A stretch of 64,000 nt of DNA from Anaerolineae bacterium (GTDB lineage: Bacteria; Chloroflexota; Anaerolineae; B4-G1; SLSP01): contig JAPKMR010000019.1 in assembly GCA_026645815.1 (NCBI GenBank), forward strand, positions 1 through 64,000, written 5' to 3'. Shown piece by piece: positions 34,221-43,316 of the stretch. The notes under the pieces are model-generated. The model was not told the origin of the DNA. It did not search any database and saw only the letters and a program-made list of their open reading frames with translations. Made by a program: the position numbers and the translations under genes. The first letter of the stretch is position 1, and the number at the start of each line of letters is the position of its first letter.

Positions 34221-34511
34221 ATGACCATACAGTTGATTGCGCTGGGTATGATTGAGACCAAGGGCTTGGTGGGCGCGATTGAAGCGGCTGATGCCATGGT
34301 CAAAGCCGCCAATGTCAAGCTCATCGGCAAGGAATATATCGGCGGCGGCTATGTCACGGTGATGGTGCGTGGTGATGTGGGTGCGGTCAAAGCTGCAACT
34401 GATGCTGGCGCCGCTGCGGCGCAGCGTGTGGGTGAGCTGGTCAGCGTTCACGTCATTCCTCGCCCCCATGGTGATGTGGAGTTCATTCTGCCTAAAGCGC
34501 AGGAGGATTAG
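34221..34511 (+). CDS. eutM: BMC-H hexameric shell protein (EutM/PduA-like)
   Basis: 96-residue single BMC domain forming hexamers that tile the microcompartment shell. It starts at the ATG at 34221 (AAGGAG upstream). Hallmarks are [20 protein letters not shown], the strand [20 protein letters not shown] (pore-lining GGG loop), [16 protein letters not shown] and [10 protein letters not shown]. The protein is identical over 90 residues to the second BMC-H at 40781-41074, despite many synonymous differences. Being first in the operon fits its need as the most abundant shell part. Confidence 0.95.
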
Positions 34512-34528: not shown

Positions 34529-35986
34529 ATGCCGCCTACCGGGCGCGAACTGCTCAGCGTGGGGATTGATGTTGGTACCACGACAACACAGATTGTTTTC
34601 TCCAGGCTTCGGGTGCATGATGTTGCCCGCCTGGGGCAGGTGCCACGCATTCAGGTAAATGCCAAGACTGTTCTTTACCAAAGCCCTATCGCTTTCACCC
34701 CACTTCTTACATCCGAAGAAGTGGATGTATCCGCGCTTACCGCCATCGTGCGGGAGGAATACCGGCGCGCCGGTATCGCCCCTGAGCAAGTTGAAACCGG
34801 TGCGGTGATTGTCACCGGTGAAATTGCCCGCGCGAATAATGCCGATGCCATCCTCAAGGCTCTCGCGCATCTGGCGGGCGACTTCGTTGTCACCGTGGCG
34901 GGTCCCAATGTGGAAGCGCAAATCGCAGGGCGGGGCGCCGGAGCGGCGGAGTATTCTACAGAGCATTATGCCCAGGTCACCAATGTGGATATCGGTGGCG
35001 GAACCGCCAACGCGGCGATATTCCGGGGCGGTGAACATCTCTCCTCCTCGGCGCTCGCAGTAGGTGGGCGACAAATGGTGGTGGAGAAGACTTCTGGCAT
35101 TGTGCGCTCTATTGCGCCCCCTGGGCGGAGCATCATTGAGGCTCTCAGTCTCCCCATCCGTGAAGGTCAGCGCGTAGAACCGGAGACATTGGAACGCTTT
35201 TGCAACTGTATGGCGGACCTCATAGCCGACCTCATTGAGGGCGAGGTCAGTGCCTTGGGGCAGCGGCTTCAGCTCACGCCACCTTTGCGCGGGGCAAAAC
35301 AATCTTCCGTTGTCTTCTTCTCCGGCGGGGTGGGTGCTTATTATTATGACCCCATCGAAATTCACGGCTTGGCGGATGTGTTGGTGCATGATGATGTGGG
35401 TCCGCTTTTCGCTCAATGCCTGCGTCTCCACCCGCGCATCCGTAGGTGCAATGTGCAGCGTCCCGCCGAGACACTTCGCGCCACGGTGATGGGAGCTTCG
35501 AATGAGACGGTCACGCTGAGTGGCAGCACTATCTGGGTGGCGCGGGATTGGCTCCCGTTGCGCAACCTGCCGGTGGTACGACCACAGCTCACTTCTGCGG
35601 AATTGTTCCAACCTGATCGTCTGGTTGAGGCGTTGTCTTATGCCGGGCAACGTTGGGATGTGGAAAGGGGGCAACGGGCTTTGGCTTTGGTGCTTGACCT
35701 GCCCGCGCGCTTGAATCATGACGGCTTGACCGCCATCACCCAGGGCGTCGTGCGCTACGTTGAGGCGCGCCATGATCGGGTCACTGGTGTGCCGCTGGTC
35801 CTGGTCCTTGAGCGCGATTACGCCCAAGCGCTAGGGCAGAGCGTCCACGCTCAGAAGCCCGACTTGCCCTTGCTCATCATAGATCAAATCGGGTTGGGTG
35901 AGGGTGATTTCATTGATATTGGGCTACCGCTTCTGGGGGGGCGTGTGGTGCCGGTCTCGGTGAAAACGCTCGTCTTCTATCACTAA
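34529..35986 (+). CDS. eutA: Ethanolamine ammonia-lyase reactivase EutA
   Basis: 485 residues, actin/Hsp70-like ATPase. It releases damaged cobalamin from ethanolamine ammonia-lyase so that fresh AdoCbl can bind. The phosphate-1 motif is GIDVGTTTTQIVFSRL and the phosphate-2 motif NVDIGGGTANAAIF. YSTEHYAQVTNVDIGGGTAN and GRSIIEALSLP are family-typical. It lies 17 bases downstream of the shell gene, with CAGGAG before the ATG. It precedes eutB, as in enteric eut operons. Confidence 0.94.
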   Translation: MPPTGRELLSVGIDVGTTTTQIVFSRLRVHDVARLGQVPRIQVNAKTVLYQSPIAFTPLLTSEEVDVSALTAIVREEYRRAGIAPEQVETGAVIVTGEIARANNADAILKALAHLAGDFVVTVAGPNVEAQIAGRGAGAAEYSTEHYAQVTNVDIGGGTANAAIFRGGEHLSSSALAVGGRQMVVEKTSGIVRSIAPPGRSIIEALSLPIREGQRVEPETLERFCNCMADLIADLIEGEVSALGQRLQLTPPLRGAKQSSVVFFSGGVGAYYYDPIEIHGLADVLVHDDVGPLFAQCLRLHPRIRRCNVQRPAETLRATVMGASNETVTLSGSTIWVARDWLPLRNLPVVRPQLTSAELFQPDRLVEALSYAGQRWDVERGQRALALVLDLPARLNHDGLTAITQGVVRYVEARHDRVTGVPLVLVLERDYAQALGQSVHAQKPDLPLLIIDQIGLGEGDFIDIGLPLLGGRVVPVSVKTLVFYH

Positions 35987-36035: not shown

Positions 36036-37403
36036 ATGCTCCTACGCACCAGGCTTTTGGGTCAGACTTATGAATTCGGCGACATCAAGGAATTGCTCGC
36101 CAAAGCCAACGAGGAAAAATCTGGCGACCGGCAAGCCGGTATTGCGGCAGCTACCGTGACCGAACGCGTGGCTGCCAGGTTTGTGCTGGCTGAAGTCCCA
36201 CTTGCAGTGTTGCGTGAGAACCCTGTTATCCCTTACGAGATGGATGATGTGACGCGCGTCATTCAGGATGCTGTCAATGAGACAATCTACAACGAGATTA
36301 AGGGATGGACGGTTGGGGCATTCCGTGAGTGGTTGTTAGCTGACACGACCACCACTGACATGATCCGCCGCGTGAGCCAGGGGTTGACGGCGGAGATGAT
36401 TGCTGCCGTGACCAAGTTGATGTCGAACATGGACCTCATGTATGGCGCGAGCAAGATTCGCTTTACCGCGCATGCGAATAACACCATTGGCTTGAAAGGC
36501 ACCCTTGCTTCGCGCTTACAGCCCAATCATCCCACCGATTCTGTGGCAGGAATTCGCGCGGCAGTTTACGAGGGTCTCTCTTTTGGTTCTGGCGATAGCG
36601 TCATTGGCATCAACCCCATGGATGACTCTGTGGATAGCGTCATGCGCCTGCTGGAGATGACCTACGAGGTCATCCAGAAATGGCGCATACCTACCCAGAA
36701 CTGTGTGCTCGCACACGTTACCACGCAGATGGAGGCGCTCAGGCGCGGCGCCCCTTGCGGTTTGGTCTTTCAGAGCTTGGCGGGGTCGCAGAAGGCCAAT
36801 GAAGCCTTTGGCATCACCGTGGAAATGCTGGATGAGGCTTATGCTCTTGCGCAGAAATACTGCGCTTCTACGGGTCCCAACTACCTCTACTTTGAGACCG
36901 GGCAGGGTACCGCGCTCTCTGCCGATGCCCACTATGGTGCTGACCAGCTCACGATGGAGGCGCGTATCTACGGACTGGCGAAGCGCTACAAGCCTTTCCA
37001 GGTGAATACCGTGGTGGGCTTTATCGGCCCGGAATATCTCTATGATGCTGTGCAGATTACCCGCGCGGGTCTGGAAGACCACTTCATGGCCAAACTCACC
37101 GGGGTTCCCATGGGTTGTGATGCCTGTTATACCAACCATGCCCGCGCTACCCAGAATGACATTGAAAACCTGGCGGTGCTTTTAGCGGCGGCAGGTGTTG
37201 ATTACTTTATGGGCGTACCCATGGGCGATGATACGATGTTGAGCTATCAGTCCACCAGTTATCACGATACTGCTGCCTTGCGGCAGCTCTTGGGCCTGCG
37301 CCCGTTGCCCGAATTCGAGGCATGGCTGGAGCGTGTTGGCTTGATGCAAGATGGCATTTTGACCGAGAAAGCGGGGGATGCCTCATTCTTCCTCCGGCAA
37401 TAA
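36036..37403 (+). CDS. eutB: Ethanolamine ammonia-lyase large subunit
   Basis: 455 residues; with EutC and AdoCbl converts ethanolamine to acetaldehyde and ammonia. It contains the family sequences GDRQAGIAA, LMSNMDLMYGASKIRF, TIGLKGTLASRLQPNHPTD, GINPMDDSVDSV (cobalamin and substrate region), PTQNCVLAHVTTQMEALRRG and YFETGQGTALSADAHYGADQ. The length and start agree with the family. It begins 49 bases after eutA with AAGGTG upstream. Confidence 0.97.
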   Translation: MLLRTRLLGQTYEFGDIKELLAKANEEKSGDRQAGIAAATVTERVAARFVLAEVPLAVLRENPVIPYEMDDVTRVIQDAVNETIYNEIKGWTVGAFREWLLADTTTTDMIRRVSQGLTAEMIAAVTKLMSNMDLMYGASKIRFTAHANNTIGLKGTLASRLQPNHPTDSVAGIRAAVYEGLSFGSGDSVIGINPMDDSVDSVMRLLEMTYEVIQKWRIPTQNCVLAHVTTQMEALRRGAPCGLVFQSLAGSQKANEAFGITVEMLDEAYALAQKYCASTGPNYLYFETGQGTALSADAHYGADQLTMEARIYGLAKRYKPFQVNTVVGFIGPEYLYDAVQITRAGLEDHFMAKLTGVPMGCDACYTNHARATQNDIENLAVLLAAAGVDYFMGVPMGDDTMLSYQSTSYHDTAALRQLLGLRPLPEFEAWLERVGLMQDGILTEKAGDASFFLRQ

Positions 37404-37414
37404 GGATTTGATTG

Positions 37415-38323
37415 ATGAATCAAGTGACGGTGGATATCGAAGCCATTGTGCAGGCAGTTGTAGCGGAGCTGCGCAAACAAGGCGGCGCCTCCGCTGCTGT
37501 CGGGACGTCCCCCGTCAAGGCGGCGCCCGGCGAATTGGTCATTGACCTGCCCGATCCTACCTTGCCGGAATTCCGGCGCGCCATTGGGGTGGGGCATCCC
37601 CACGACCTGGAGGGTTTGCGCAATCTCTGCGCCACGACCACCGCACGCCTCGGTGTGGGTCGAGCTGGACCTCGCCCCCGTACCAGCAGTTTGCTGCTCT
37701 TTCAGTTCGATCACGGTATCACACAAGACGCCATCTACGGTGAGGTTTCTGAACCGGTGAAGGAGAAGTTGGGCCTTTTCACGGTGACGACACAGGTCAG
37801 CAATCGGGATGAGTATCTTCTGCGCCCAGACCTGGGACGCAAGCTCTCCGATGCTGCTAGAAAGACCATTGCCGAGCGTTGCGTCAAAAAACCGCAGGTG
37901 CAGGTTGTCGTTGGCGATGGTCTGAGCGCGGCAGCAGTGAATAATAACGTGCCGGAAATCTATCCCGTCATCGAGCAGGGCCTCAAGAGCGCTGGCATTA
38001 GCATGGGGACGCCCTTCTTTATTCAAAATGCCCGTGTTGGCGTCATCAATGATGTTAATGAGGTCGTCGGCGCGGATATGGTGGTGATTTTGTTGGGTGA
38101 GCGACCTGGTCTGGGCGTGGCTGACGCGCTCAGCGCCTACATGGGCCACAAGCCCGGTCCCGGCAAGACCGATGCCGAGCGCGATGTTGTCTGTATGATT
38201 ACCTATCATGGTGGCACCAATCCATTGGAAGCGGGCGCCTATGTGGTAGAATTGATTAAACAGACCTTGAAGTACCAGGCTAGTGGCATAGAGCTCAAGT
38301 TGAAGGCTTCTGGTGGGGAATAG
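37415..38323 (+). CDS. eutC: Ethanolamine ammonia-lyase small subunit with encapsulation helix
   Basis: 302 residues from the ATG at 37415; a TTG one codon earlier is possible. EutC completes the cobalamin-binding site. Recognisable are RIGVGRAGPRPRTSSLLLFQ-like LGVGRAGPRPRTSSLLLF, DHGITQDAIYGEVSE, VVVGDGLSAAAVNNN and LIGERPGLG as LLGERPGLGVADALSAYMGH. The first 20 residues, VDIEAIVQAVVAELRKQGG, form an amphipathic helix joined by a Pro/Ala-rich linker to the enzyme, which is the layout of microcompartment-targeting peptides. It starts 11 bases after the eutB stop. Confidence 0.95.
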   Translation: MNQVTVDIEAIVQAVVAELRKQGGASAAVGTSPVKAAPGELVIDLPDPTLPEFRRAIGVGHPHDLEGLRNLCATTTARLGVGRAGPRPRTSSLLLFQFDHGITQDAIYGEVSEPVKEKLGLFTVTTQVSNRDEYLLRPDLGRKLSDAARKTIAERCVKKPQVQVVVGDGLSAAAVNNNVPEIYPVIEQGLKSAGISMGTPFFIQNARVGVINDVNEVVGADMVVILLGERPGLGVADALSAYMGHKPGPGKTDAERDVVCMITYHGGTNPLEAGAYVVELIKQTLKYQASGIELKLKASGGE

Positions 38324-38365: not shown

Positions 38366-39022
38366 ATGGCTGTTCTCGATCCCATTAAGCCACATATTCT
38401 ATCGGCGCGGTTGATTCCTAACGTGCACCCCGATTTCGCGGCGCAGTTGGGCCTTCACCCCGATCAGCGCAGCCTGGCGCTCGTCACGTGTGACATGGAT
38501 GATGCCCTATACATCTCGCTTGATGAGGCGACAAAGATGGCTGAGGTGGAGGTAGTCTACGCGCAGAGTTTCTACGCCGGCTCCAACTATGCCTCTGGTC
38601 CCCTCTCGGGTGAGATTATTGGCATTCTGGCAGGACCCGACCCTGCGGAAGCGCGTGCGGGCCTCAACGCCTGTACCGCTTATGCCGAAGCCGAGGCCTG
38701 GTTCTACTCCGCCAATACGGATGACACGCTGATCTTCTTTCCGCATACCATCTCGCGTTCTGGAAGCTACTTGAGTCAGGTGGCGGGGGTGCCCATTGGA
38801 ACACCGCTGGCATATTTGATTGCGCCCCCCATTGAGGCAACCTTCGCCATTGATGCGGCGCTCAAGGCTGCTGAGGTGACCCTGCGCGTTTGGTGGAAAC
38901 CCCCTTCGGAGACGAACTTTTCGGGGGCGTTGCTCTCGGGGACGCAGAGCGCTTGCCGGGCAGCCAGTATGGCTTTCCAGGAGGCTGTTCTCGATGTTGC
39001 CCGCAATCCGCACAAGTTCTAA
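38366..39022 (+). CDS. eutL: BMC-T shell protein EutL
   Basis: 218 residues from the ATG at 38366 (GGGAGGG five bases before). A tandem permuted BMC protein forming trimers with a gated central pore. EutL traits are LSARLIPNVHPDFAAQLGL, YAQSFYAGSNYASGPLSGEI, GILAGPDPAEARAGLNAC, FFPHTISRSGSYLS and the C-terminal ATFAIDAALKAAEVTL. It probably lets larger molecules such as cofactors cross the shell. Confidence 0.95.
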   Translation: MAVLDPIKPHILSARLIPNVHPDFAAQLGLHPDQRSLALVTCDMDDALYISLDEATKMAEVEVVYAQSFYAGSNYASGPLSGEIIGILAGPDPAEARAGLNACTAYAEAEAWFYSANTDDTLIFFPHTISRSGSYLSQVAGVPIGTPLAYLIAPPIEATFAIDAALKAAEVTLRVWWKPPSETNFSGALLSGTQSACRAASMAFQEAVLDVARNPHKF

Positions 39023-39063: not shown

Positions 39064-40554
39064 ATGCCTGAAACATACGACCTGGATCTACAATCCATTC
39101 AGGAAGCGCGTTGCCTGGCGGTGGCGTGCCGTGAAGCCCAACGGCAATGGGCGCTGGCGGATCAGGCTACCGTGGATCGCGTCTGCCAGGCGATGGCGGA
39201 GGCGGCTTTTGCCGATGCTGCGCGCCTGGGGCAGTTGGCGTATGAGGAGACCGGCTACGGTGTGCCGCTCCACAAGCGTCTCAAGAATGAATTTGCCAGC
39301 CGTCAGGTTTGGGAGTCCATCAAAGACCTCAAGACAGTTGGCGTCATCGGGCGCGATGACCGGCGTAAGCTCATCGAGATTGCCTGGCCCATGGGGGTCA
39401 TCGCTGGCTTAACGCCTTCGACCAACCCCACATCCACGGCAATCTACAAGGTCTTGATTTCAGTCAAGGCGCGCAATGGCATCATCATCGCCCCACATCC
39501 GTTGGCAAAGCGATGCACTCATGAGGCTGTGCGGGTCATGGCTAAAGCAGGTGAAGCCGCCGGGATGCCGCCTGGACTGGTGAGCTGTATGCAGCACATC
39601 ACACTTGATGGCACTCAGGCGCTGATGCACCACTATGCTGTCTCGCTGATTTTGGCGACGGGCGGCGGACCGATGGTGCGGGCAGCGCACAGCGTTGGCA
39701 AGCCTGCGATTGGCGTGGGACCTGGAAACGTGCCCGTCTATGTAGATCGCAGCGCTGACATTCCCAAAGCCGCCGCTGATATCGTTAACAGCAAAGCCTT
39801 CGATTGCTCTGTTATCTGTGCTACCGAACAATCAGTAGTGGCAGATAAACCCATCGCAACGCAACTGCGCGCAGAGATGGAAAAGCAAGGCGCATACTGG
39901 GTCAACGCTGAGCAGAAGGCGGCTTTGGAGCGCACGCTTTTCTTCCCTGATGGCAGTATCAATGCGCGCAGCGTGGGCAAGACGCCTCAGAAGCTGGCGC
40001 AGATGGCGGGAATCGTCGTTCCAGGCTCTGCTCGCGTGCTGGTTGCGGAACTTGAGGGCGTGGGAAAAGAGTATCCTCTCAGCCGGGAAAAACTCACTAC
40101 CGTGTTGGCTTTCTTTGTAGAGGATGGTTGGCATGCTGGTTGCGAGCGCTGTATCCAGCTGCTCAAATTTGGCGGCGATGGGCATTCGCAAGTGATTCAT
40201 GCTCGGGATGAAGAAGTGATTCTAGCTTTTGGCTTAGAAAAACCCGCTTTCCGTATCATCGTCAACTCCTGGGCAACGATGGGCGCTATCGGCGCAAGCA
40301 CGGGTGTCGCACCTGCGTTGACGCTGGCGCCCGGCGGTTTGGGTGGCGCCATCTCGAGCGACAACATCACGACCACACACCTGCTCAATATCAAACGGGT
40401 GGCGTATGAACTGGTTCCGCCTTCCGCGTTGGCGCGGACTCCTGCACCCGATGTCACAGGATATGCTGCCCCGGCGCCGGTTCTCCCTCAGGATGACGCC
40501 GTGCTTGAGGAAATCGTGCGCCGTGTGCTGGTGCAGCTAAACGCGGAGAGGTGA
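39064..40554 (+). CDS. eutE: CoA-acylating acetaldehyde dehydrogenase EutE
   Basis: 496 residues; oxidises acetaldehyde with NAD+ and CoA to acetyl-CoA. The catalytic Cys lies in [18 protein letters not shown]. Other motifs are [39 protein letters not shown] and [20 protein letters not shown]. The last 20 residues, [20 protein letters not shown], form an amphipathic helix behind a Pro/Ala-rich linker and look like a C-terminal encapsulation peptide, similar to the EutC N-terminus. Family members usually carry it at the N-terminus, so the position is worth noting. The sequence is also related to the aldehyde-dehydrogenase half of AdhE. Confidence 0.95.
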
Positions 40555-40558
40555 TATA

Positions 40559-41074
40559 ATGACCGCATCACGTCTGTGCAAGGCTGTGACCCAGAGCGGC
40601 AGGCCGTGTCGCAATCGCGCGTTGGAAGGCTCGGATTATTGTCGCTTGCCGGCGCATCGGGCGCTGGCGCAGACGGAAAAAACCGCAGCAATATCGGAAT
40701 CCGGTGTCGAAAGGTCTGTTATTCCTACTCTGGCGCTATCAATGGCTGTGCCAGAACCATTTCAGGAAAAGGAGTCGGGTATGACAAACGTACAGTTGAT
40801 TGCACTCGGTATGATTGAGACCAAGGGATTGGTGGGCGCCATCGAAGCCGCCGATGCTATGGTCAAAGCAGCCAATGTCAAGTTGATCGGCAAAGAATAC
40901 ATTGGCGGCGGTTATGTCACGGTGATGGTGCGCGGCGACGTAGGCGCGGTCAAGGCAGCGACGGATGCGGGCGCAGCTGCGGCGCAGCGTGTGGGTGAGC
41001 TCGTCAGTGTTCATGTCATCCCTCGCCCTCATGGCGATGTGGAGTTCATCCTGCCCAAAGCGCCGGAAGCATAG
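40559..41074 (+). CDS. BMC-H shell protein with N-terminal Cys/His extension; two possible starts
   Basis: The long form (171 residues, ATG 40559, GGAGAGG seven bases before) has an N-terminal small zinc-motif-like segment: C7-x9-C17-x10-C28-x4-H33 with [18 protein letters not shown] 40-residue linker and a complete BMC-H domain follow. A second in-frame ATG at 40781 has its own strong AAAGGAG six bases upstream and would give an ordinary 97-residue shell protein. Both products could be made. The domain is identical over 90 residues to the BMC-H at 34221-34511. The extension begins four bases after the eutE stop. Confidence 0.88.
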
Positions 41075-41146: not shown

Positions 41147-41833
41147 ATGAAAAAACGGTTGATTACCGCGGCTGATATTCGCTGCCTGAAAGATGCGGGC
41201 AAGCTACAGCTCGTGGTTGCCAGGGGCGAGCTGGTCACACCGTTAGCGTTCGATACCGCACGAGAATTGGGGATAGCCATCTGCTACGAGGGTGACGGCG
41301 TTGGAGCTGAGCTGCCTGTCTGGAGTGGAGCAGCTCAACGTGTGCGCCGTGAGCTGTCACAAACGCCTTCTGTTCCCATGTCCGCCTCTCCTCCTTCGGC
41401 GTCGCAAACGGATGCGCTGGAAACCCGTGTGCGGGAAATCGCCGCCGCATTGCTAGCCCAATCTTACGCGCCGGCATCGAGCTCGCCGGTGCGCCATATC
41501 ACGGGGCGTGGCTTGCACCTGGAACCGTTTCCCTTTGATGTTGGGCATCCAGAGATGGATATCCGTGTGCTGGATGTCGTGACTGGCGCGCACGGTTCGC
41601 CCATCGCAGGGGGGATGATGTCTTTCCGCAAAGGCAGTTTCCCGTGGACGCTGAACTATGATGAGCTTGAATACGTCATCGAAGGGGAATTGCACATCGG
41701 GACGTCGCAGGGCACGGTGATAGGCTTACCAGGGGATGTGCTTTACGTTCCCAAGGGGACGAGCATTACTTTTGGGACGCCCGAATGGGCTAAGTTCTTC
41801 TACGTGACCTACCCGGCGGAATGGGGCGGGTGA
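41147..41833 (+). CDS. eutQ: EutQ, cupin acetate-kinase-like protein
   Basis: 228 residues. The N-terminal segment MKKRLITAADIRCLKDAGK resembles the phosphotransferase-associated/BMC-targeting start of EutQ, then an Ala/Ser/Pro-rich linker (85-100). The C-terminal cupin runs from HITGRGLHLEPFPF to YVTYPAEWGG, with ELEYVIEGELHIG and LPGDVLYVPKGTSITF. EutQ homologues have been reported to make ATP from acetyl phosphate or to support shell assembly. No phosphotransacetylase is encoded nearby, so the acetyl-phosphate role is doubtful here. AAAAGGAG precedes the ATG. Confidence 0.92.
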   Translation: MKKRLITAADIRCLKDAGKLQLVVARGELVTPLAFDTARELGIAICYEGDGVGAELPVWSGAAQRVRRELSQTPSVPMSASPPSASQTDALETRVREIAAALLAQSYAPASSSPVRHITGRGLHLEPFPFDVGHPEMDIRVLDVVTGAHGSPIAGGMMSFRKGSFPWTLNYDELEYVIEGELHIGTSQGTVIGLPGDVLYVPKGTSITFGTPEWAKFFYVTYPAEWGG

Positions 41834-41864
41834 CGCATGTCAGTCCTCCTTCTAAGGCAAAAAT

Positions 41865-42677
41865 GTGAATCCTGAACTTACTGCATATTTGAACGCTGCT
41901 GATGATGCGCTCAAGCGTCCCGGAATCAATGGCTATCGCGGTCCGGTCCACGTCGGCGTGGATTTGGGCACGGCGTATACGACGCTGTTCGTCCTGGATG
42001 AGCACTACCAACCGCTCATCGGGGCTTATCGCTTTGCGGAAGTTGTGCGGGATGGCTTGGTGGTAGATTTCGCAGGTGCGACGAAACTGCTTCGAGAGCT
42101 CAAACGGGAAGTGGAGTCGCGGTTGGGCTTTGAATTGACCTCCGCAGCCACGACCTATCCGCCGGGCGTGCCTCAGGTCGAGGTGCGCGCTACCCGCTAC
42201 GTGGTGGAATCTGCGGGCATGGAATGCACTGGTGTGGTGGATGAGCCAACCGCTGCGAATGCCATCCTCCAGGTAGAGAATGGCGCCGTCGTAGACATCG
42301 GTGGTGGAACCACGGGTATTGCCATCATCCGCGAAGGTCAGGTCATTTATACTGCTGATGAGGCGACGGGCGGTGTGCATTTCACCCTCGTGCTTGCTGG
42401 CGCGCATCATATCTCCTTTGGGGAGGCTGAGGCGCTCAAAATCAACCCTGAGAAGCAGGAGCGGTTATTCCCCATTGTCCACCCGGTGATGGAGAAGGTG
42501 GCGACGATTATCTCCCGGCATATTGCCGGTTACCCGGTAGAGACGCTCTATTTGGTGGGGGGAACCAGCGCTTTCAAGGGGATTGCTGAGGTCATTGCGT
42601 CGGTGACGGGGGTGCACACTTTTGTGCCCACAAATCCGCTTTTTGTGACTCCATTAGGTGTGGCAAAGTATAACTGA
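41865..42677 (+). CDS. eutJ: EutJ, Hsp70/actin-like chaperone
   Basis: 270 residues from a GTG at 41865. The ATPase motifs are VGVDLGTAYTTLFVLD (phosphate 1), VVDIGGGTTGIAI (phosphate 2) and YLVGGTSAFKGI (adenosine). TTYPPGVPQVEVRATRYVVE and CTGVVDEPTAAN are EutJ-typical. It probably assists folding or assembly of the compartment enzymes. This gives the operon two different actin-fold ATPases, EutA and EutJ. No clear Shine-Dalgarno is seen, so translation may depend on eutQ upstream (31 bases). Confidence 0.92.
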   Translation: MNPELTAYLNAADDALKRPGINGYRGPVHVGVDLGTAYTTLFVLDEHYQPLIGAYRFAEVVRDGLVVDFAGATKLLRELKREVESRLGFELTSAATTYPPGVPQVEVRATRYVVESAGMECTGVVDEPTAANAILQVENGAVVDIGGGTTGIAIIREGQVIYTADEATGGVHFTLVLAGAHHISFGEAEALKINPEKQERLFPIVHPVMEKVATIISRHIAGYPVETLYLVGGTSAFKGIAEVIASVTGVHTFVPTNPLFVTPLGVAKYN

Positions 42678-42692
42678 GCATAAGAGGTGCTT

Positions 42693-43316
42693 ATGGCTGA
42701 TGATTTTCAACTACGCGCTTACTGTTACCTGGACCGTATGCAACCCCAGTATGCGGCTTTTGTAGGCACCATCACACAGGGTGACTTGCCCATAGAAGGG
42801 ATGGCGAGCCTCTATGTGGAAATGGCGCCCGGAAACTGGGTTTTCCGCGTGGTGGATATTGCGGTCAAAGCCACTGATGCCAAGCCCGGCGCCCAAATTG
42901 TTGAGCGCGAGTTCGGCATGTTCGAGATTCACTCGCTCTCACAAGAGGATGTGATTCAGGCAGGACAGATGGTACTGCAACAGCTGGGGTTAAAGGTCAC
43001 GGATCGCAAGAAACCGGAAATCGCTTCGCTGCAGGTGATTACCAACGTCAACCCCTATCAGGCGCAGCTGCTCAACCGCTTCGCCCGGGGTATGATGTTG
43101 GTGCCTGGACAGACGATGTTGGTGATGGAATGCGCGCCGGCAGCCTATATTAACCTGGCAGCCAATGAGGCGGAGAAAGCGGCGCCGGTTAGCTTGATGC
43201 ACATCAGCTCGGTGGGACGCTTCGGACGGCTTTGGATGGCGGGCACTGAAGCAGATATCCTTGCCGCGCGCGATGCTGCGGTGGCTGCTCTCAATGCGGT
43301 TGAAGGCTCTCCGTAG
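42693..43316 (+). CDS. Divergent tandem-BMC (BMC-T) shell protein
   Basis: 207 residues from the ATG at 42693 (AAGAGGTG upstream). Two degenerate BMC-like halves: VVDIAVKATDAKPGAQIVER with FGMFEIHSLSQEDVIQAGQM, and AANEAEKAAPVSLMHISSVG with GRLWMAGTEADILAARDAAV. Each has the xxALKAxxV helix and the G-xx-xDVxxA strand-helix of the fold. The opening AYCYLDRMQPQYAAFVG is unlike EutL. From memory it resembles the BMC-T of Rhodococcus/Mycobacterium-type compartments. It is the last gene of the operon, 16 bases after eutJ, and ends before a strong terminator. Confidence 0.75.
   Translation: MADDFQLRAYCYLDRMQPQYAAFVGTITQGDLPIEGMASLYVEMAPGNWVFRVVDIAVKATDAKPGAQIVEREFGMFEIHSLSQEDVIQAGQMVLQQLGLKVTDRKKPEIASLQVITNVNPYQAQLLNRFARGMMLVPGQTMLVMECAPAAYINLAANEAEKAAPVSLMHISSVGRFGRLWMAGTEADILAARDAAVAALNAVEGSP

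Follow-up and report, generated by a model that had tools for sequence, protein, structure and literature searches.

The window, that is, the whole stretch of 64,000 nucleotides that was analyzed, carries an eut locus on its forward strand, in which genes for BMC-H, EutA, EutB, EutC, EutL, an acylating acetaldehyde dehydrogenase (AldDH), a second BMC-H, EutQ, EutJ and BMC-Tdp follow one another; the last gene, which is our main subject, encodes 207 residues (Table 1). The translation of AldDH ends in a helix resembling an encapsulation peptide. No alcohol dehydrogenase was found in the eut locus.

Table 1. Features of the eut locus in the window, with the matches on which each assignment is based
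Feature	Position	Strand	Basis
BMC-H hexamer 1 (EutM-like)	34221..34511	+	PF00936, 104 bits; NF012018, 141 bits, above cut-off; Shine-Dalgarno AAGGAG before ATG
EutA, reactivase	34529..35986	+	PF06277, 539 bits
EutB, ethanolamine ammonia-lyase large subunit	36036..37403	+	PF06751, 703 bits
EutC, ethanolamine ammonia-lyase small subunit	37412..38323	+	PF05985, 255 bits
EutL, other trimer (BMC-Tsp)	38366..39022	+	TIGR04502, 339.3 bits, cut-off 300
Acylating acetaldehyde dehydrogenase (AldDH)	39064..40554	+	TIGR02518, 564 bits, cut-off 620
BMC-H hexamer 2, in-frame Cys/His N-terminal extension; core may alternatively start at 40781	40559..41074	+	PF00936
EutQ-like protein	41147..41833	+	PF06249, 110 bits
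EutJ	41865..42677	+	NF011660, 357 bits, above cut-off
BMC-Tdp, tandem permuted BMC, stacking-class gated trimer	42693..43316	+	Profile, structure-sequence and Foldseek matches

The two BMC-H proteins (34221–34511 and 40781–41074) are identical at 88 of 88 residues, and their genes differ at 34 of 264 nucleotides. Because so many nucleotides differ despite the identical residues, the protein identity appears to be held by selection or by an old conversion and not to reflect recent duplication. The extension of the second BMC-H (40559–40780; about 75–85 residues) has a Cys/His motif with a weak match to HGG_STG/DUF5763. Similar motifs are seen in BMC-H extensions of other Chloroflexota and of Nitriliruptoria; elsewhere the extensions are of low complexity and free of the motif. 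An AAGGAG and an in-frame ATG at 40781 suggest that the gene may also give a second, short BMC-H product.

The initial annotation had described the product of the last gene as a divergent double-BMC protein unlike EutL, and our analysis bore this out. Pfam detects a weak BMC domain (PF00936) in the second half of the protein alone, at 19.6 bits against a curated cut-off of 24.5, which explains its odd look. The NCBIfam CcmP model (NF053796) matches with 251.8 bits (E = 5e-75), a score that lies below its curated cut-off of 340 bits and so does not make the protein a CcmP proper; the EutL model TIGR04502 (cut-off 300 bits) does not match it. Among PDB sequences, the protein matches CcmP (E = 3e-60), HO-5816 (E = 3e-58), CsoS1D (E = 1.5e-47) and the RMM proteins MSM0275 (E = 3e-41) and MSM0271 (E = 1e-40). 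These matches cover its whole length, residues 6–205 giving full-length alignments to CcmP and HO-5816 and a similar one to CsoS1D, and the identity is 47–48% to CcmP and HO-5816 and 38–40% to MSM0271 and MSM0275. With E-values down to 1e-60, a chance resemblance to stacking double-BMC proteins is ruled out. The structure prediction agreed: an AlphaFold2 monomer model, for which 32 relatives were used, had a mean pLDDT of 76.5, with residues 1–28 poor, and its top Foldseek matches were HO-shell BMC-TD, CcmP, CsoS1D and RMM trimers, with TM-scores of about 0.8, compared with about 0.37 for EutL. We conclude that the protein is a second BMC-T of the stacking class BMC-Tdp, which is another class than that of EutL and includes the RMM trimers. 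A second BMC-T beside a gated EutL trimer had been supposed from the beginning, and the EutL of this locus is indeed a true one (Table 1).

In CcmP, Glu69 and Arg70 shift conformation such that the central pore opens or closes, and a stack of two trimers makes a barrel (PMC5853799); modelling of CsoS1D treats its chamber as an air-lock for bulky anions (PMC13316943). The equivalent pair in the window protein, Glu71-Arg72, is identical in all 125 aligned sequences, which come from eut and SPU loci and from CcmP, HO and RMM proteins. Because the pair is invariant and its CcmP equivalent gates the pore, gating by Glu71 and Arg72 is well supported, and face-to-face stacking would be expected from the family. 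A pseudohexamer would then consist of three BMC-Tdp copies, and a pair of these trimers, face to face, would form a chamber with central pores for which Glu71 and Arg72 may act as the gate. Within an EUT3-type ethanolamine compartment, the trimers would be facet tiles, next to the BMC-H hexamers and EutL.

The opening of the protein and its NEAEKAA segment had also been likened to the BMC-T of RMM compartments, and a mosaic shell with an actinobacterial-type trimer had been proposed. The resemblance is real but unspecific, as NEAEKAA is also present in CcmP, HO-5816 and HO-3341. We drew RMM sequences from 345 Actinomycetes genomes, using matches to MSM0271 and MSM0275 to recognize them, and calculated an unrooted maximum-likelihood tree of 95 proteins. 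The RMM families formed two supported clades (100/99 each; jointly 100/96), and the window protein lay outside both, in an EUT3/SPU6 clade (54 rows, 100/98) with members from Chloroflexota, Actinomycetota and Spirochaetota. As the tree is unrooted, EUT3/SPU6, RMM and CcmP/HO each appear as one side of a branch. Given that the structural class is common to both and that the identity to MSM0271 and MSM0275 is 38–40%, one could imagine that the trimer was acquired from an actinobacterial RMM compartment and added to an enteric-type eut shell. We regard this as extremely improbable, since the protein falls outside the RMM clades, CcmP and HO-5816 are closer to it, and its nearest relatives in Actinomycetota (Nitriliruptoria, Nocardioides, Kineosphaera and Actinotalea) are encoded in eut-linked EUT3 loci and not in RMM loci. 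Tree position and identities thus contradict an RMM origin.

The window has EutA, EutB, EutC, AldDH and BMC-Tdp in one locus, the combination that marks the EUT3 type, and BMC-Tdp in EUT3 loci is already described by Sutter et al. 2021 (PMC8217296). Its AldDH, which scores below the TIGR02518 cut-off, is mostly 55–76% identical to the AldDHs of other EUT3 and SPU loci. EutL was found in eight of 400 Chloroflexota genomes, six of which have EutL and BMC-Tdp on one contig, 4–5 kb apart; in G259 the contig stops right after EutJ, at the expected position of BMC-T, and in G329 both genes are present on different contigs. The two lie 3.4–5.7 kb apart in all 25 EutB-bearing loci, a figure that is conditional on these loci having been picked by their BMC-T. 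The order EutA-B-C-EutL-AldDH-BMC-H-EutQ-EutJ-BMC-T is kept across Chloroflexota, Actinomycetota and Spirochaetota. The pair that had been read as a mosaic therefore comes close to being shared by all eut loci of the phylum: it is standard in Chloroflexota, and our loci add members to a published locus type. Apart from these, a third kind of locus (L021, L024, L030, L032, L033 and L052) has a BMC-Tdp that is 73–76% identical, together with EutJ and a distant aldehyde dehydrogenase (31–32%); no eut or SPU enzymes were detected there.

In 20 of the 25 relatives' loci, EutN lies directly upstream of EutA. The contig of the window (C110) has no match to PF03319, the domain of the BMC-P pentamer, and the locus is also without EutT and without Qn behind BMC-T; most relatives have all three. 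EutT is absent from the interval between EutQ and EutJ (41833–41865), as it is in loci L001 and L002. Most relatives have EutT between these two genes, and so does G005, which belongs to the same genus. A search of the whole genome placed all four of its BMC-domain proteins inside the window locus and its sole significant PF03319 match on another contig, C183. There, the pentamer gene is part of an SPU-type locus with the order RpiB-DeoC-EutN-AldDH-Qn, the contig starting inside the Qn gene. About 20 other Chloroflexota SPU loci have BMC-H, usually EutJ, and BMC-T between AldDH and Qn; in C183 there is a gap of 34 bp at this place and no BMC-H, EutJ or BMC-T. Helices at the N-termini of DeoC and RpiB and at the C-terminus of AldDH look, from their sequences, like encapsulation peptides. 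Qn (L091 3–251; L107 5072–5401, 109 residues in the latter) consists of a domain similar to the EutQ N-terminus and an encapsulation-peptide-like helix, and its usual place is directly behind BMC-Tdp. C183 is unlikely to be a contaminant contig: its GC content of 58.1% equals that of the window (58.1%), and between its SPU stretch and that of the sister genome G001 the identity is about 90%, in agreement with the 90–92% between the eut loci of the two genomes.

The eut and SPU loci are complementary, with the facets in the former and the vertices in the latter. What is new here, in draft MAGs, is that the window locus is without pentamers and that these are in a separate SPU locus without facet proteins. 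Taken jointly, the BMC-Tdp class, the EUT3 locus type and this split of the shell genes over two loci seem to us likely to hold. Among 48 genomes of the order, pentamer genes were found in every one of the five that belong to the genus and in one besides. The five are draft MAGs of 77–93% completeness (with 6% contamination in G000), in which an absent gene may be unassembled. Given that EUT3 is a published type, that EutN is so often found next to EutA and that every genome of the genus is a draft, the window might hold an ordinary EUT3 locus whose pentamer, EutT and Qn are merely missing from the assembly, with no split shell at all. This is unlikely, however, because the eut locus is flanked on both sides by more than 20 kb of the same assembled contig, the prfA neighbourhood upstream is conserved in L002, and the gap is common to the window, G001 and G002, with pentamer genes found elsewhere.

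Two related species repeat the split. In G001, whose BMC-T is 99% identical, contig C36 carries RpiB-DeoC-EutN-AldDH-Qn-EutN-EutN between unrelated flanks; no facet gene is present on it, and all BMC domains of this genome are on eut contigs. In G002, whose BMC-T is 94% identical, the BMC domains are in the eut locus only, which has no EutN, and the pentamer genes are on contig C261 only. When C261 was aligned to C183, about 1.59 kb (rpiB and deoC) proved to be cleanly gone between the start of rpiB and eutN, and AldDH to be gone between EutN and Qn. What has been kept is EutN-Qn-EutN behind the old rpiB promoter region; one DeoC is left, on another contig. No other single argument for a role of the pentamer genes in the eut shell is as strong as their survival in G002, where the SPU enzymes have gone. 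The genus as a whole does not depend on SPU pentamers, because G005 and G007 have retained a EutN with their eut genes. G005 has its own EutN in the eut locus and, in addition, an SPU locus with a deletion scar (L109 6516–7045, contig C100), in which AldDH residues 1–87 are joined to a BMC-T remnant of residues ~110–205 without any Ns. In G007, EutN adjoins EutA and no SPU pentamer was found.

We also considered that two separate compartments might be formed at different times, or that facet genes of the SPU locus might lie in the unassembled part, as C183 ends inside the locus. We find this quite improbable: in G001 a single contig holds all the SPU genes from RpiB through to the third EutN and includes no facet genes, and the outlasting of the SPU enzymes by the pentamer genes in G002 is easiest to understand if these serve another shell. 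The simplest reading is one shell out of two half-loci, for which the eut locus would supply the facet tiles and the SPU-type locus, with DeoC, RpiB and a second AldDH, would supply the pentamer vertices; we infer that this shell brings together proteins encoded by the two loci. To the full form of this reading we assign a probability of roughly 50%: the shell would be physically shared, the EUT3 locus having lost its vertex genes and the SPU locus its facet genes, and it would enclose both ethanolamine ammonia-lyase and deoxyribose-phosphate aldolase, each of which feeds acetaldehyde; in one species the SPU enzymes would later have been deleted and the vertex genes left. Judging from the draft MAGs, two pathways that produce acetaldehyde probably share one shell in the window species and its nearest relatives. 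Our literature search, which was thin on subscription journals, found no paper on shared shells of this kind and none on eut compartments of Chloroflexi. If the shared shell is true, the complementary loss of vertices and facets would be an example from nature of one shell serving two compartments, for which a single genus shows intermediate states, and it would reveal directly which shell parts of different compartment types are compatible.

Ethanolamine ammonia-lyase yields acetaldehyde, as DeoC does, and encapsulated AldDH converts it to acetyl-CoA; in known compartments, CoA is recycled inside by a phosphotransacylase and NAD by an alcohol dehydrogenase. No PduL-type PTAC was found in nine genomes of this kind, and no Pta in G000, G001, G002, G003 and G005. 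Because both are absent from these genomes, a passage of CoA or acetyl-CoA through the shell is probable, with BMC-Tdp as the obvious candidate route. EutL would most likely be the entry for the small substrate, ethanolamine, and BMC-Tdp would most likely let larger molecules through, for instance CoA/acetyl-CoA or NAD(H). The correlation has an exception in Kineosphaera limosa, where a Pta gene follows 1.4 kb behind the same BMC-Tdp, and this weakens the idea of CoA passage. Genomes without the CoA-recycling phosphotransacylase of better-known compartments would offer a simple system for studying the cargo of a large gated pore.

Among known proteins, CcmP of the beta-carboxysome and HO-5816 of the Haliangium shell resemble the window BMC-Tdp most, by whole-length homology, by the Glu-Arg gate and by identity. 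The window protein differs from CcmP in that His18 of the CcmP ligand pocket is Tyr20, and its score for the CcmP family stays under the cut-off. With EutL it shares two BMC domains, a trimer and the operon, but the BMC-T class, the low Foldseek score and the lack of a EutL-model match set the two apart. The RMM trimers MSM0275 and MSM0271 belong to the same stacking BMC-T class and keep the gate pair; they differ in forming separate supported clades and in their lower identity. At the level of loci, the window agrees with the EUT3 type of Sutter et al. (PMC8217296) in its eut signature enzymes, in a BMC-Tdp whose clade neighbours SPU6, and in EutL, which is found in the loci analyzed here and in the published EUT modules; it is unlike EUT3 in being without pentamer, EutT and Qn. 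The same paper describes SPU6 with an EUT-module satellite, where the main locus is SPU and the satellite brings EutA, EutB, EutC and EutL. That arrangement is similar in that a single genome has both sugar-phosphate and ethanolamine enzymes and in that the BMC-Tdp and AldDH are related. The window genome differs from it in that none of the facet tiles is in the SPU locus and all of them are in the eut locus.
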